The notes below the pieces were generated by a model that searched no databases, was not told where the DNA came from, and saw only the letters and a program-made list of their open reading frames with translations. Positions 20,103 to 38,960 of a stretch of 64,000 bases of DNA are shown one piece after another (the stretch's first letter is position 1; each line of letters opens with the position of its first letter). The position numbers were made by a program, and so were the translations under genes. This stretch comes from Owenia fusiformis (taxonomy: Eukaryota > Annelida > Polychaeta > Sabellida > Oweniidae), in NCBI GenBank assembly GCA_903813345.2, contig CAIIXF020000001.1, positions 12,259,915 to 12,323,914 on the forward strand, in the 5' to 3' direction.

Positions 20103-29226
<9,124 letters not shown>

Positions 29227-32859: not shown

Positions 32860-32863
32860 TATA

Positions 32864-33420
32864 TAGGCCAGTCAATTGGTGATTTCACATCTGACAAATT
32901 GCAATAGTTTTGAAACATGGTTTAATTGGTGAATTGATATATATGAAGCAACATATTAAAAATATAGGAAAATATATGTAGTGGACAAATATGAAATTTC
33001 ACTTCTTAGGTACCCCCACCCCAATTTTGACTAGGGGTAAGGGGAAAAATAATTTCTCCATATTTGAATAGTTTCTTCATGTTTTTATGTTGTATTAGTT
33101 CAGGGGAAAGATTTAAAGTGGATTTAAATCTACTTTTAATGCTTTTTTGTGCCAACAATTGACAATTTACCTCCCAAATACACCAAAATATGTTGTCATA
33201 TGGCCAAAATATTTTATAATAATGTATATATTTCTCAATTCCTTGATCCAAGAGCCATAGAAAAATTCATGGTAATACTTCTATATACAGGTGATACACA
33301 TATGGAATACTGACTTCTCAACTTGCAAATTGTTGAAGAAAAAAATATTTAAAATTTCAATTTTTTGCCCCGCCCACTTTTGGGGTGACCTTACTTTTGC
33401 AACATAACTTCCAATATATA
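32864..33420. repeat. Left long inverted terminal repeat of the transposon
   Basis: About 550 bp, matched in inverse by 38250-38805 with many substitutions and small indels. The outermost 16 bp and a 30-bp block around GCCCCGCCCACTTTTGGGGT are the best preserved, suggesting they matter most for mobilisation or have diverged least. Confidence 0.8.
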
Positions 33421-33948
33421 CCACATATGTCCTCAAATTTGATATCAAAATACAGATATAAACCCATTCTGTCTTGTACATAACTTTTTATTGGAGTTAT
33501 TTCCCCTGTCTTGTTAAAAATCTCATAATATGTTGGATGCAAGATAAAATATTAGGGTCCAATTACCGTTACTTAATAACAACTGCGATATCACATATCT
33601 ATAGCTTAAATCAACTCTAATTTGAGAATACAACAAATACAACATGGTTACCTGACCAATAAACACTATCTCTTAGTTATTTAATCATTAAACAGTTTTA
33701 AAATGAAACTTAGAAACACTAGCGCCATCTAAAATTCAAGGGTCGACTTCAAAGTTGACTTCAAACGTTTTTCATCTATTGCAAAATTAGCTTTTCCAAA
33801 TTAATATATTTGAACAGAGGTGTAGAAAAAGAAAAATACAAAATGAACATCAAAATAACAATTATACATTGAATATATAAATAAATAACATCTATTTAAT
33901 ATAAATATACATATATTTATTCTATATAATGTATCAATATTACCAGCC

Positions 33949-36900
33949 ATGTTTCAGAACAACATCAGCTGGTCTGACATGGTCAAATCACGTATTAGTT
34001 TTACTAACGATTTACCATCTGCAGATGCAGTGTACCATAAGGTTTGTAGTGGTAACTTTAGATCAGGCAAGGGCATACCACAACAGTTTCAACTGAGTGA
34101 TGGGGAAAGGCAACCAAAAATGAAAAGAATGAGTGGACACCCTAATAAGACATGCAACGACAAGATGCTTTCAATAAAGTTGTTACCTTTCTTGAGGCGA
34201 ATGATGATGAACAAATAACTGTCACTGATCTTATTAGCAAGGTGAAAGAGTTCATAAATGACAGTGAAATTGAACCCTATAGCTTTAAATACATGAAGAA
34301 AGAGCTGAAAGCATTCTCTGGTGAGAACCTTATCATCAGTGATATCCAAGGAATACAAAATGTTGTTACCTTTCATGACAATGCTGCCAAAATATTGCAT
34401 GCTTTTCATCAACACAAAGGAGACCAAGTAGATGAAAAAGAGAAAATTATAGAAACTGCAGCAAGTTTGATAAAAAGTGCCATAGAGGACAAAAAGCAAT
34501 CTCCCCAAACTTATCCTGAATATGACACAATGTCCTCCATCAATGAGCCATTAGACTTTTTACCTGACATTTTGTCGATGTTTTTGAGCAAGTTGTTTGT
34601 TGGTAAAGATGTTAGAAACAAAGAAGCATGAATTGGACAAGCTATTATGCAGGCCACTCGTCCAAATGCCCTTTTGGCCCCATTACAGCTTGGTCTAGGT
34701 GTGCAGCTCCATCATCATTTCCAGTCAAGATTTTTGATTGACACACGTAACAAACATGGGTTTACTTGCTCATATTCTGAGGTCCAGAAGTTTGAAAGGA
34801 GTGCAGCATTGATGCAAAACACAGACATACCTAACATTACTCCTAATTATGTTGTACATCATGTTGCAGATAATGTAGATCACAACGTTTGAACTCTCGA
34901 TGGCAAGAATACGTTCCATGGAATGGGCATTATTGCAACAGTCACACCTAAAGTGAGAACAACTCGGCCAGTGATCAGACATGATGTGTCTTCAGAAGAT
35001 ATAGAGGCAATTGGTCGCATCAATACTCACTACTATTCAAATGATAATGATTTGTTTAGTAGTTTGAGGCATGAAGAGCTTGTGAGACAATCATTTGATA
35101 AACCTTTAACAGGCTTTGATCTTGTGTGGAAATAATTCTTGTATGATAGTATTTGTGAAACAATGCATGTTGTTTTTTAACTGTATAATTATATATAAAT
35201 GTCTTGTAATTGATTTTGTGAGGAAACCAAGTGTTTGGTTTGAAACACAATAAAATCTTGAATCTTGAATCTTCTTGCTTTTTAAGACTCCTTGTCCACT
35301 TTGGTCAGGATTTATGCAGATGGTTTATAAGGGGGAATATCCTGGTGAATCTTCAGTCATGTTTTCTACCTTTGATAGATATGGACCCAGGTAACATGTC
35401 ATGTATCTACTCCACTCCACTCCACTCCAAATACAGTTGGTCATATGTTATCTGGTAAGGCAGTTTCTAGGGCAGTTAGAGGCCACCTTCTGATCGATAG
35501 TGCATTGAATACTATGTTAGCAGCTCAGATATATGACATTGATCTTGATCAGACCAATGAAGAACAAAATGATTCACAAGAACAACCATTTGTAGAAGTA
35601 GAGAATGATACTACCCATATTGACCTGAAGGAATTGCATCTTGTCCTTGATAAGATAATTAATCATGTTCATGACAATGATGACAAAATTGATGTTGCAA
35701 CAGTCTTTGGAGAAAAGCTTCAAGCTGAGAAGGACTCACTTGAAAACCTAAAAACAGCAAAGCTATGGTTGCAATATATGGATATGATCGACCTATTTAG
35801 GAACTTCATAAAAGGAGAAAGGATTGGGAGTTGGACACTTCATCTCCAATGTTTGCATGATATGTTGCCATATTTTGCAGCAGCAGGTCACAATCTATAC
35901 CTAAAGTCTGTATATCTTTATCTCCAAAAATGAATAACCTTGAAAAAACAGAGCCCAGAGGAATATGCCCATTTTATGAATGGGCTACATGTCATTCGTC
36001 GATCAGATAGGTCATGGGCAGGACTATCTGCAGACCTCATGATTGAGCAATGCCTAATGCGAAGCATCAAGTCAACAGGAGGTCTCACGAGAGGCCGGGG
36101 TGTGGCTGAAATTCAGCGTCTGGTGTGGATTCGTTCCTCACCAGCATGCGGAGAGATAAGCAGTGCAATGCAAGAACTCACTGATATAACATATGCCACA
36201 AGTGAGCAGCATAAAGATGCAACACCAACAAGAATCACCAGAGATGTAACAGATGCTAAATGTATCCTGAAATACCTTGTTGAAAGAAATCCCCTTTTTC
36301 CTGAACAATCATTACGTAACATCACAACAGGAGTTGCAGCTTCTTCTGTCAATGCATATGACGCAAAAGAATTAGGCAACGTGATTGTGGCATCTATGAT
36401 TGGGAAAAAGGTATCTGAGTGTTCCTTCAAAAGAAAAAGCCAAGCTGTGACCATGGGATCAAAAACTGCAGTCAAGGTTAACAATGAAGAAATACACATA
36501 GATCCTATTTTGCTTTTTCAATGCCTAACCATAGCTGGTACACGATCTGGTGATTTGTCAGAGGCTCTAGGTTATGAGCTTTGTTCCTTTCCACTGGCTT
36601 TGTTTGAATCAAAAGGTGTAATGAGACCAGCGGTAAAATCACAACTGGCAGAGGCATTGTGGACACCAAAAATATCTTCCTTACCAGGGCCAAGTGACAA
36701 AGATGTTCAACATGTAATTGATGGAGGCGCCCTTCTTCATCGCATTCCTTGGCAAAAAGGTTTTACATGGGAGAACATTTTAAGCCAATATGTATACTAT
36801 GTGCAGATGAGGTACCAAAATGCTGAAATACTGTTTGATGGGTATCAAAATGGCCCTAGCACAAAAGATGCAACTCATCTTCGTAGAAATGGAGGGAAAA

Positions 36901-37855
36901 CCGGGACTGTAATCCAATTCATTAACACAATGAAACTCCAATGTAAGAAAGAAGATTTCTTAATGAATCAAACAAACAAGCAGAATTCTATTTTTCTGCT
37001 GTCAGAGCGACTAGAATCCATAGGTTGTGAGGTTTTCCATGCAGAGGCAGATGCAGACCTTCTCATTGTAGAGACTGCAATTGAATGTGCTGCAACTTCT
37101 GAGACCATTCTTGTAGGAGATGACACTGATCTCCCTGTGCTGCTTATTCATCACGCCCACAACATTGAACACAACATATTCTTCAAGTCTGAACCAAAGC
37201 AATCCACACACAAAACCAAAATATGGAACATCAAAGATACAAGACTATCTTTAGGTGACATAGTGTGCAGCAACATCCTATTCATTCATGTGTTTCTTGG
37301 CTGTGATACTACATCAAGGCTATTTGGAGTTGGGAAATGGGTCTCAGAAAGGCAGATAAAGAAATCTGATGTATTTCAGAAAAGTGCTTGTACATTTAAA
37401 TTGCATGATGCCACACAAGACATGATATCAAAAGAAGGAGAACCTGCCTTTGTATCATTATTAGGAGGTAAGCTTGGGCAAACCTTTAACAAATTGAGAT
37501 TACAAAAGTTTCATGAGAAAGCTGCCTCTAGTCGAGAGTCTGTTCATCCAAAAGTGCTTCCACCGACACCTGATGCTGCAAAACACCACAGCCTAAGGGT
37601 ATATCATCAAGTACAATCATGGATGGGGGTAAATCTTCCACCAGAAGAATGGGGATGGGGATGAACAATGGCCACTATCTCCCAGTTGCTACAACTTTAC
37701 CGGCAGGACCTTCTTCACTCTTAGAAAAGATCAAATGTAATTGTAAGACAGGTTGCACAATAATGCACTTCACATGTCGAAAGAATGGAATGGACTGTTC
37801 CATGGCATGTGGTGAATGTAGAGGAATATGTGCAAATATAAATAATGATGACTAA
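33949..37855 (+). pseudogene. Decayed transposon protein with XPG/FEN-like nuclease motifs and a Cys-rich tail
   Basis: One intronless reading frame of about 1,250 codons, now in pieces. The N-terminal part (33949-34218) has VYHKVCSGNFRSGKGIP; the frame shifts near 34150-34200 and then runs, in one phase, from 34152 to 37661. In-frame stops are TGA 34629, TGA 34890, TAA 35133 and TGA 35931; 35136-35444 reads only in other frames, and the last 70 codons (37619-37855) are in yet another. The largest intact block, 35940-37664, ends with EVFHAEADADLLIVETA, ILVGDDTDLPVLLI and FLGCDTTSRLFGVGKW, corresponding in order and spacing to the acidic motifs of XPG/FEN nucleases (EAEA, DxD, GCD before a helix-hairpin-helix-like Gly-rich turn). 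The tail holds CNCKTGCTIMHFTCRKNGMD then CSMACGECRGIC, a probable zinc-binding cluster. I recall many near-identical uncharacterised proteins from aquatic invertebrates and fishes. Function is inferred: transposition nuclease. Confidence 0.85.
35136..35444 (+). other. Interruption and deletion inside the transposon gene
   Basis: The main frame is broken. At 35136-35275 the sequence is AT-rich and ends AATAAAATCTTGAATCTTGA, like the 3' tail of an inserted retroposon. Coding similarity returns out of frame at about 35275-35425 (FLPLIDMDPGNMSCIYST), then runs into a CCACT-repeat at 35409-35429 and jumps directly to NTVGHMLSGKAVSRAVRG. Related proteins I recall have several tens of residues between these two motifs, so a deletion at the short repeat is likely. 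Confidence 0.5.
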
Positions 37856-38249
37856 TTGCCAACCGCAATCTCTCTTGAAGTCCAAAATCTGCAATGCCCT
37901 GTAGCAGTCTGAGATACTAGTATTTTAAGATTTCACAAATCTTTCTAAATCAGTGATTGTACTTTTATTTTAAACAAATACACTATTATACCTTCACATA
38001 AGCACATAAATAAGTGCAATGGTCCATAATTGGCACATTTGATATAAATATATGTCAAAACATACAGTATTAGCCTTACAAAATACCCCCCCCCCCCCCC
38101 CATTTTACAGATTTTTCAAATTGCAGTTATAATTTTGTCCAAAACAGGAGTCCCAAACTCTAATAAAAGTTAATATTGGATGAAATATGCCCAAATCATT
38201 CTTTAAGTTGTAGAATTGTTAAGAAATACTGCATAATTTGAAAATTATT

Positions 38250-38805
38250 TAGCAAAAGTAAGGTCACCCCAAAAGTGGGCGGGGCAAAAATGTAAAACTT
38301 ATATATTTTTTTTCTTCCCCAATATGCCACTGATGATACTGGTATCCCATATATGTTATGTCTATATATACATGTATCACCATAATTTTTTTAATCATTT
38401 TGGAATGCACCAGTCTAGAAATATAAGAAAAGATACATGAACTGTCGATCATTTAATGACACATTTGGGGTCGTCGAGGGTGAAACAAAAAATTCTAAGC
38501 CTCAAATGAAAGTTTACTTCGGTAAAAATTTGTCTTTTGTCATTCTATTATCATAATATAACAAGAAAACTTGAAAAAACTATTCAATTATAGATAAAAA
38601 AAAAATTTTTAACAAATAGTCAAATTTAGGGGTGGGTCGTAGGGGGTACCTATGAAGTAAAATTTGACATTTGTCCACTAATTATATTTTCCTATATTTT
38701 TGATATGATATAAGGTGAATATTGATCAACAATTTAAACTAAGTTTGCAAACTATTGCAATTTGTCCTAGGTTAGGCTGTTTTTTTCCACCAATTGACTG
38801 GCCTA
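38250..38805. repeat. Right long inverted terminal repeat of the transposon
   Basis: The inverse counterpart of 32864-33420, ending CCAATTGACTGGCCTA. Just inside the element, a poly-C tract at 38087-38101 lies in the 3' non-coding part of the transposon gene. Confidence 0.8.
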
Positions 38806-38808
38806 ATA

Positions 38809-38960
38809 GGATAAAGCAGTTATTTACGATCGGTTTAGATATTGGGTTCATCCCTCATGAGATATGCACATCTACCTTCGGTCCCTCAGGTAGATATGCA
38901 TATCTCCCTCTGGATAAACCCCATATCCAAAACCTCCCAGTATATAACCCTTATGTATCT
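38809..38960. repeat. Repeat family X, copy 2 (right block)
   Basis: CCTCAGGTAGATATGCATAT through CCATATCCAAAACCTCCCAG matches 22507-22570. The 70 bp between 38809 and here continue the pre-insertion sequence. A third, more diverged copy of this block is at about 40980-41060 (AAACCCCATATCTGAAACCT). Confidence 0.7.

Follow-up and report, generated by a model that had tools for sequence, protein, structure and literature searches.

We analyzed a 64,000-bp stretch of the genome of the annelid Owenia fusiformis (contig CAIIXF020000001.1, forward-strand positions 12,259,915 to 12,323,914; hereafter the window), which carries a 5,942-bp transposon copy at window positions 32864–38805. This element is probably a dead copy of an autonomous DNA transposon with terminal inverted repeats, of the Academ kind (AcademX type, as compared by description only), whose gene would combine a DDE centre with an EXO1-like nuclease. 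Its 18-bp ends, 3-bp target duplications and empty sites show that it is a mobile unit, and related genes (stop-free in loci L014 and L019) are likewise flanked in three further lineages of the same genome (L014, L015 and L019). A preliminary description, drawn from the letters of the window, had recognized a dead DNA transposon with both ends present, and the ends and duplications were indeed found, on either side of a gene broken by stops, frame changes and a deletion. It had also assigned strand cutting to an XPG-type nuclease rather than to a DDE domain. On this point the relatives lead to a different view, since the probable transposase core was deleted from the window copy and is not absent from the family.

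The outer limits of the element are marked by the following features.

32861–32863, unstranded: left copy of the ATA target duplication, read from the letters; a single ATA stands at three empty sites.
32864–32881, plus strand: left terminal inverted repeat, 18 bp, perfect (TAGGCCAGTCAATTGGTG); 39 genome ends at no more than 1 mismatch.
32893–33419, plus strand: left arm of the imperfect long inverted repeat (inverted-repeat blocks I1–I4).
38233–38766, minus strand: right arm of the imperfect long inverted repeat (blocks I1–I4).
38788–38805, minus strand: right terminal inverted repeat, 18 bp, perfect, by its inverted-repeat match to the left end.
38806–38808, unstranded: right copy of the ATA target duplication, read from the letters; a single ATA stands at three empty sites.

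The 3-bp duplication thus stands as previously described. The perfect ends had been measured as 16 bp within inverted repeats of about 550 bp; they prove to be 18 bp long, and the long arms exist but are imperfect, being 71–89% complementary by block in the window copy. Over 560 bp, the identity of the arms is 67% in the window copy and a similar 66% in the C6 copy (L013), so that their asymmetry does not stem from decay of the window copy alone.

Across the 525 contigs (498 Mb) of the host genome, the 18-bp end occurs in 36 exact and 3 one-mismatch copies, while its reversed pattern, used as a control, occurs in none. Pairing from the list of ends yields 15 convergent pairs, 4.5–6.9 kb apart, and leaves 9 ends unpaired. 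Fourteen of the 15 pairs are flanked by an exact 3-bp duplication, compared with a mean of 1.7 and a maximum of 10 when the flanks were randomly re-paired in 20,000 shuffles; duplications of 4, 5, 6 or 8 bp were found at none of the 15. The counts of end copies and of duplications both lie far beyond chance. A search with the two flanks of the window copy joined together, in which 40 of 1,863 first-look candidates were scored, listed 43 matches in the genome. Thirty-nine of these (89–97% identity) begin before the junction and continue across it; of the remaining four, one is the right flank of the window copy itself and three are weak (72–77%). Three fetched empty sites have one ATA at the joint and lack the element, and the insertion therefore sits in a dispersed host repeat. 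An uninterrupted counterpart of this repeat had been proposed at 21–22.6 kb of the window. The flanks do match positions 21243–21377 and 22504–22590, but these two parts are 1,126 bp apart, compared with ~222 bp in the flanks at the element; the stretch is a relative of the host repeat and offers no clean empty site. The repeat that bears the insertion contains an imperfect inverted repeat (window 38834–38931, 80% over 44 bp) and is widely dispersed.

The gene was read by comparing the window copy with the C6 copy, which is 92% identical at the DNA level in a global alignment, and by locating its pieces with tblastn.

33907–34164, plus strand: remnant of the N-terminal Cys/His region, aligned with L014 residues 120–207 (tblastn).
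34158–35132, plus strand: coding sequence of the N-terminal part, broken by stops at 34629 and 34890; it contains DNVD (34869–34880), the first acidic motif (comparison with L013).
35142–35277, unstranded: 136-bp insert (one TTCTTG counted) missing in the C6 copy, with TTCTTG at 35136–35141 and 35272–35277 and a TTGAATC-repeat tail (tblastn gap, sequence).
35413–35428, plus strand: internal deletion scar (CACTC repeats); the counterpart of L013 residues 347–425 is lost here, and the middle acidic motif TFDQP along with it (comparison with L013).
35430–37658, plus strand: longest coding remnant (L013 residues 426–1169, 95% identical), with one TGA at 35931 and the Asp (36033–36035) and Glu (36045–36047) of the motif DLMIEQ (tblastn, codons).
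36687–37433, plus strand: putative XPG/FEN/EXO1-like nuclease domain, with Asp codons at 36720 and 36837, EADAD at 37044–37058, GDDTD at 37116–37130 and the GCD Asp at 37305 (alignments, EXO1 profile matches).
37736–37852, plus strand: Cys-rich (CXC-like) tail, in a frame that differs from that of the nuclease part (tblastn, comparison with L013).

Relative to L013, the window copy has stops at 34629, 34890 and 35931, and its frame changes between pieces that end or start near 35275, 35363, 35430 and 37643–37658. The stretch lost opposite L013 residues 347–425 includes the sequence TFDQPLWWKA, the middle acidic motif, and the N-terminal Cys/His region is retained only in part. The copy is dead, having lost its middle acidic motif, its reading frame and part of its N-terminus. 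One long intronless gene, as originally described, can be deduced from the relatives, but in the window copy this gene is broken. The acidic motifs AEADAD, GDDTD and GCDTTS and the Cys-rich tail lie where they had been reported. By its TTCTTG edges and its TTGAATC-repeat tail, the 136-bp insert resembles a short retrotransposed sequence.

DDE transposases place two acids after strands and a third in a helix, and a long insert precedes this third acid. Seven residues (L014 numbering: D441, N442, D444, D597, H628, D870 and E874) are invariant in all 13 aligned relatives, and the resulting set of D..D, D and D...E, which every one of the 13 rows keeps as DN.D, T.D and D...E, precedes the XPG domain. 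As judged by eye, its acids follow strand-like stretches, with the last in a helix-like stretch, and we infer that they form a transposase of the RNase H fold. The segment lost from the window copy is the one with the invariant middle Asp, which is the likely reason why no DDE triad had been seen there; in the relatives, the presence of the full set speaks against the proposal of an XPG enzyme in place of a DDE domain.

The nuclease domain was aligned for 16 sequences, together with rows for the DDE region, using frames that cover at least 85% of the profile and leaving out broken copies. Invariant positions are the single Asp residues of VFD, AD and GCD, the two of D-T-D, and the Lys and Arg that follow the VFD Asp. 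Fifteen of the 16 rows retain the first Asp, which the row of L084 lacks because it starts later, and the L006 copy is damaged at EADAD. The catalytic acids, the basic arch residues and the GCD..GIG block, which we take to correspond to those of FEN1 and EXO1, follow each other in the order expected for the XPG/FEN/EXO1 family. A profile built from 10 sequences had EXO1 as its top match in the PDB (5 of 7 matches, best E 0.026), and with the 16-sequence profile, searched against 177,635 PDB sequences, all five matches up to E = 10 were EXO1 (best E 2.9e-4), with alignments covering the VFD..K..R and GCD..GIG blocks. When the latter profile was compared with frames of three XPG-family loci of the host (L024–L026), an exon of L025, EXO1-like by eye, came out on top (E 0.0021 for a nominal 100 sequences). 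These matches support the assignment of the C-terminal domain to the XPG/FEN/EXO1 family of nucleases, with its putative catalytic acids conserved, and bear out the XPG/FEN-type nuclease that had been suggested, EXO1 being the sole match type in the PDB search with the larger profile. The likeness to the XPG family is distant, because the Pfam XPG models are blind to these proteins: XPG_I gave 10 matches over the whole genome, none of them at the listed transposon frames. PDB searches with single proteins produced apparent chance matches only. The Cys-rich tail showed a weak match, below the cut-off, to the Pfam family TCR/CXC in two relatives.

The relatives in the genome supply the reading frame that the window copy lacks. 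Stop-free frames read directly comprise 1,234 residues in L013, 1,482 in L014, 1,622 each in L016 and L018, 1,435 in L019 and 1,468 in L020, with a further 1,483–1,497 in the cut loci L089, L090 and L091; in L015, the gene falls into two frames, of 1,034 and 268 residues. Only frames read in this way were counted, because the lengths reported by the genome search may span stops, as for C9:29862860, listed with 1,562 residues versus 969 stop-free ones in the cut locus. Identity to L014 amounts to 67% for L013 and 57% for L015, and to 23–26% for L016, L018, L019, L020 and L021. No match to L014 residues 1–240 was detected in L013, whose completeness is therefore not proven. Ends were found for L014 (TAGGC..GCAAATGG, duplication TAA), L015 (TACTCCAGTAAAA, duplication TAT) and L019 (TAGTGCAGTCAGAATG, duplication TTG, with 674-bp arms that are 98% complementary). 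Counting the window family, four lineages, 23–25% identical at their most distant, have inverted ends and 3-bp duplications. The left end of L019 lay outside the range of the automatic scan and was read by eye. Automatic end search is not decisive alone, as long arms also yield inner pairs whose duplications differ in length (for example, 2 bp in L013, L014 and L015; 4 and 8 bp in L019), and the 3-bp pairs taken are those at the outer limit of the arms; in the fetched stretches of L016, L018, L020 and L021, this search gave no convincing ends. By eye, the element ends begin with TA-N3-CAGT in the window, L015 and L019 families but not in L014.

Ends of the L019 type occur in 126 genome copies at no more than 1 mismatch (control, 0), with an exact 3-bp duplication in 9 of the 10 pairs whose flanks were fetched, and most of their pairs among the matches listed are ~4 kb apart. 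One such element, fetched in full (L114, G000:C1:28892900-28897230), has L019-type ends and shares the long arms of that type at ~76% identity. Because it retains only scraps of the gene, it is a non-autonomous relative, and this one member that was read suggests that the numerous ~4-kb group with L019-type ends may be mobilized in trans. Many places of ~45% identity over the nuclease part are scattered through the genome. The three that were fetched (L119, L120 and L121) are not separate XPG genes; they are decayed fragments nearest L014 with one exact L014-type end each, and no second end was found within the 3-kb pieces. At least a part of the numerous short matches confined to the nuclease is explained by fragments of this type. 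Next to the gene in L090, L091 and L092, three copies that are ~97% alike, lies a tandem array whose period is near 49 bp, and a 303-residue frame beside one relative (L017:5964-6872) resembles, by eye, the integrase of a long terminal repeat retrotransposon. Scans of collections of viral contigs and genome contigs returned no relatives.

Between L013 and L014, synonymous divergence (dS) is saturated, and nonsynonymous divergence (dN) amounts to 0.219 for the DDE part and 0.209 for the nuclease part; amino-acid change is low and alike in the two parts. The near-identical pair L016/L018 has a dN/dS of 0.39 overall and of 0.28–0.47 in the four of five parts for which it was computable.

Several results weigh against an Academ-type element with two catalytic centres. 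The EXO1 match sums two blocks that are individually weak (independent E-values 0.35 and 15), and Pfam returned no match above the cut-off, to XPG or transposase families, for the frames of the window or their relatives. For 10 members of the nuclease domain, Pfam gave neither XPG_N nor XPG_I at E values up to 10; its weak matches went to unrelated families, the best of them (E 0.0043, in one of the 10 members) to the Peptidase M64 N-terminus. The profile of the DDE region matched no transposase structure in the PDB. An hhalign comparison with FEN1 from the archaeal Methanococci, for which 14 of 15 loci were usable and the sequences were few and similar, gave no useful match, and a single-sequence AlphaFold model of the nuclease part had a mean predicted local distance difference test score of 31.6, too low to be of use, so that neither fold was seen. 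One window-family pair, on C10, lacks an exact duplication (TAA vs AAG), as does one of the 10 L019-type pairs. The dN/dS values of 0.67 for L090/L091 and 0.74 for L091/L092, with 1.5 on 7 changes in the nuclease part of L090/L091, do not support strong recent constraint. Finally, cut-and-paste movement is assumed from the kind of element.

For an active member of the family, we envisage that the N-terminal Cys/His fingers and the Cys-rich tail would bind the element ends and that the DDE domain (L014 D441 or D444, D597 and E874) would cut the 3′ ends and join them to phosphates of the target that are separated by 3 bp. The other (5′) strand, or flaps arising from excision or joining, could be the substrate of the EXO1-like domain, in a role likened to that of TnsA serving TnsB in Tn7. 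In its strictest form, this scheme describes an obligate single-chain transposase with two nucleases, in which cutting and joining of the 3′ ends fall to an RNase H-type DDE centre and cutting of the 5′ strand to an EXO1-like centre, perhaps explaining why the 3-bp duplication is short and fixed; we regard this form as possible, if rather doubtful. Alternatively, the DDE domain may do all cutting and joining, leaving the EXO1-like domain to trim flaps at the new insertion later or to widen the donor gap in favour of element-restoring repair, a role that overlaps with the flap part of the scheme above. EXO1 and FEN1 are known to process gaps and flaps, the profile matches EXO1 and not FEN1 or XPG, and, as far as the available part of the source goes, Kolobok lineages bear several unrelated accessory nucleases beside their DDE transposase (PMC9587614). 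The conserved fusion to the transposase region and the similar restraint on both domains in L013 and L014 suggest a direct part in transposition, without amounting to proof. Since the data do not separate the two, a repair role is likewise held tentatively, as a reasonable candidate that falls short of an even chance.

Other readings fare less well. Use of the XPG-type domain as the only transposition nuclease, with no DDE domain, would fit the window copy, which has the XPG acids and an incomplete DDE set, as well as the lack of a structural match for the DDE region and of a Pfam transposase family in the relatives. This reading is improbable: the middle part is deleted in the window copy, DN.D, T.D and D...E stand in all 13 relatives in a placement that is DDE-like by eye, a fixed 3-bp duplication suits strand transfer by a DDE enzyme, and Academ is listed with the DDD/E-transposase superfamilies (PMC9587614). 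It is unlikely, if less so, that the element belongs to a superfamily distinct from Academ that acquired an XPG domain by convergence. Such a reading could draw on the fact that the Academ likeness is one of description, on the identity of only ~23–31% between far lineages even within one genome, and on a mollusc survey that, in its accessible portion, has Academ almost confined to bivalves, two annelids yielding few frames (PMC10294476). It is opposed by the 3-bp duplications, the nuclease and the length, which agree with published Academ elements as far as these are described in the excerpts available (PMC10045372, PMC10294476). A host or captured gene lying inside an inverted repeat, and thus no transposon gene at all, would account only for the size and decay of the gene; with 15 convergent end pairs, target duplications and the same architecture in three further lineages, its probability is negligible, and the empty sites refute it.

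The Academ-type transposon with a DDE centre and an EXO1-like nuclease thus remains our preferred reading. The nuclease of the AcademX lineage is of the XPG type. According to the part of the source at hand, AcademX elements generate 3- or 4-bp duplications and AcademH elements 9- or 10-bp ones, a difference linked to nuclease versus helicase (PMC10045372), and the duplications of the window family (14 of 15 pairs) and of the other lineages, all 3 bp, fit the former. Academ is also counted among the superfamilies that encode a DDD/E transposase (PMC9587614), and bivalve Academ elements were, in the pages available, gathered with a DDE/D profile and have a curated mean length of 5,565 bp (PMC10294476), compared with 5,942 bp for the window element. 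The window family likewise encodes a nuclease together with a transposase-like region and has terminal inverted repeats. The label "Academ-like" given at the outset is consistent with duplication, nuclease and length. Academ is named in four further sources (PMC10799480, PMC5753468, PMC9783078, PMC9143410), whose available parts provide no further test. A literature search, which did not include the key Academ paper, found no report pairing Academ with XPG, or a DDE transposase with XPG in a transposon, and we make no claim of novelty in print; the family is probably new and its kind already known.

The case illustrates how a single decayed copy can mislead, as the likely transposase core was concealed by a deletion and the accessory nuclease was the only enzyme still in view. 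Its value lies in this correction and in the stop-free relatives: the genome offers a test set of stop-free genes, exact ends, empty sites and apparently trans-mobilized deletion derivatives that makes the role of accessory nucleases in eukaryotic DDE transposons directly testable. Among known nucleases, the C-terminal domain resembles EXO1 and the XPG/FEN family in its VFD...K...R and GCD...GIG blocks, which align with EXO1 structures, and in the presence of further acidic positions; it differs in being very divergent, unseen by the Pfam XPG models and fused behind a transposase-like region. Kolobok lineages E, D and P similarly pair a DDE transposase with an extra nuclease that has a different fold, as described in the accessible part of the source, whereas Kolobok elements have TTAA 4-bp duplications and other nuclease folds, with no mention of an XPG domain in that part (PMC9587614). 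A functional analogy, and only that, is a bacterial one. In Tn7, the DDE enzyme TnsB is accompanied by a second, unrelated nuclease, TnsA, which serves the other strand. There, however, the DDE enzyme and the second nuclease are two proteins, and the latter has a restriction-enzyme fold. If the two-nuclease chain proposed here is real, it would represent a eukaryotic, single-chain counterpart of the division of labour between TnsA and TnsB.

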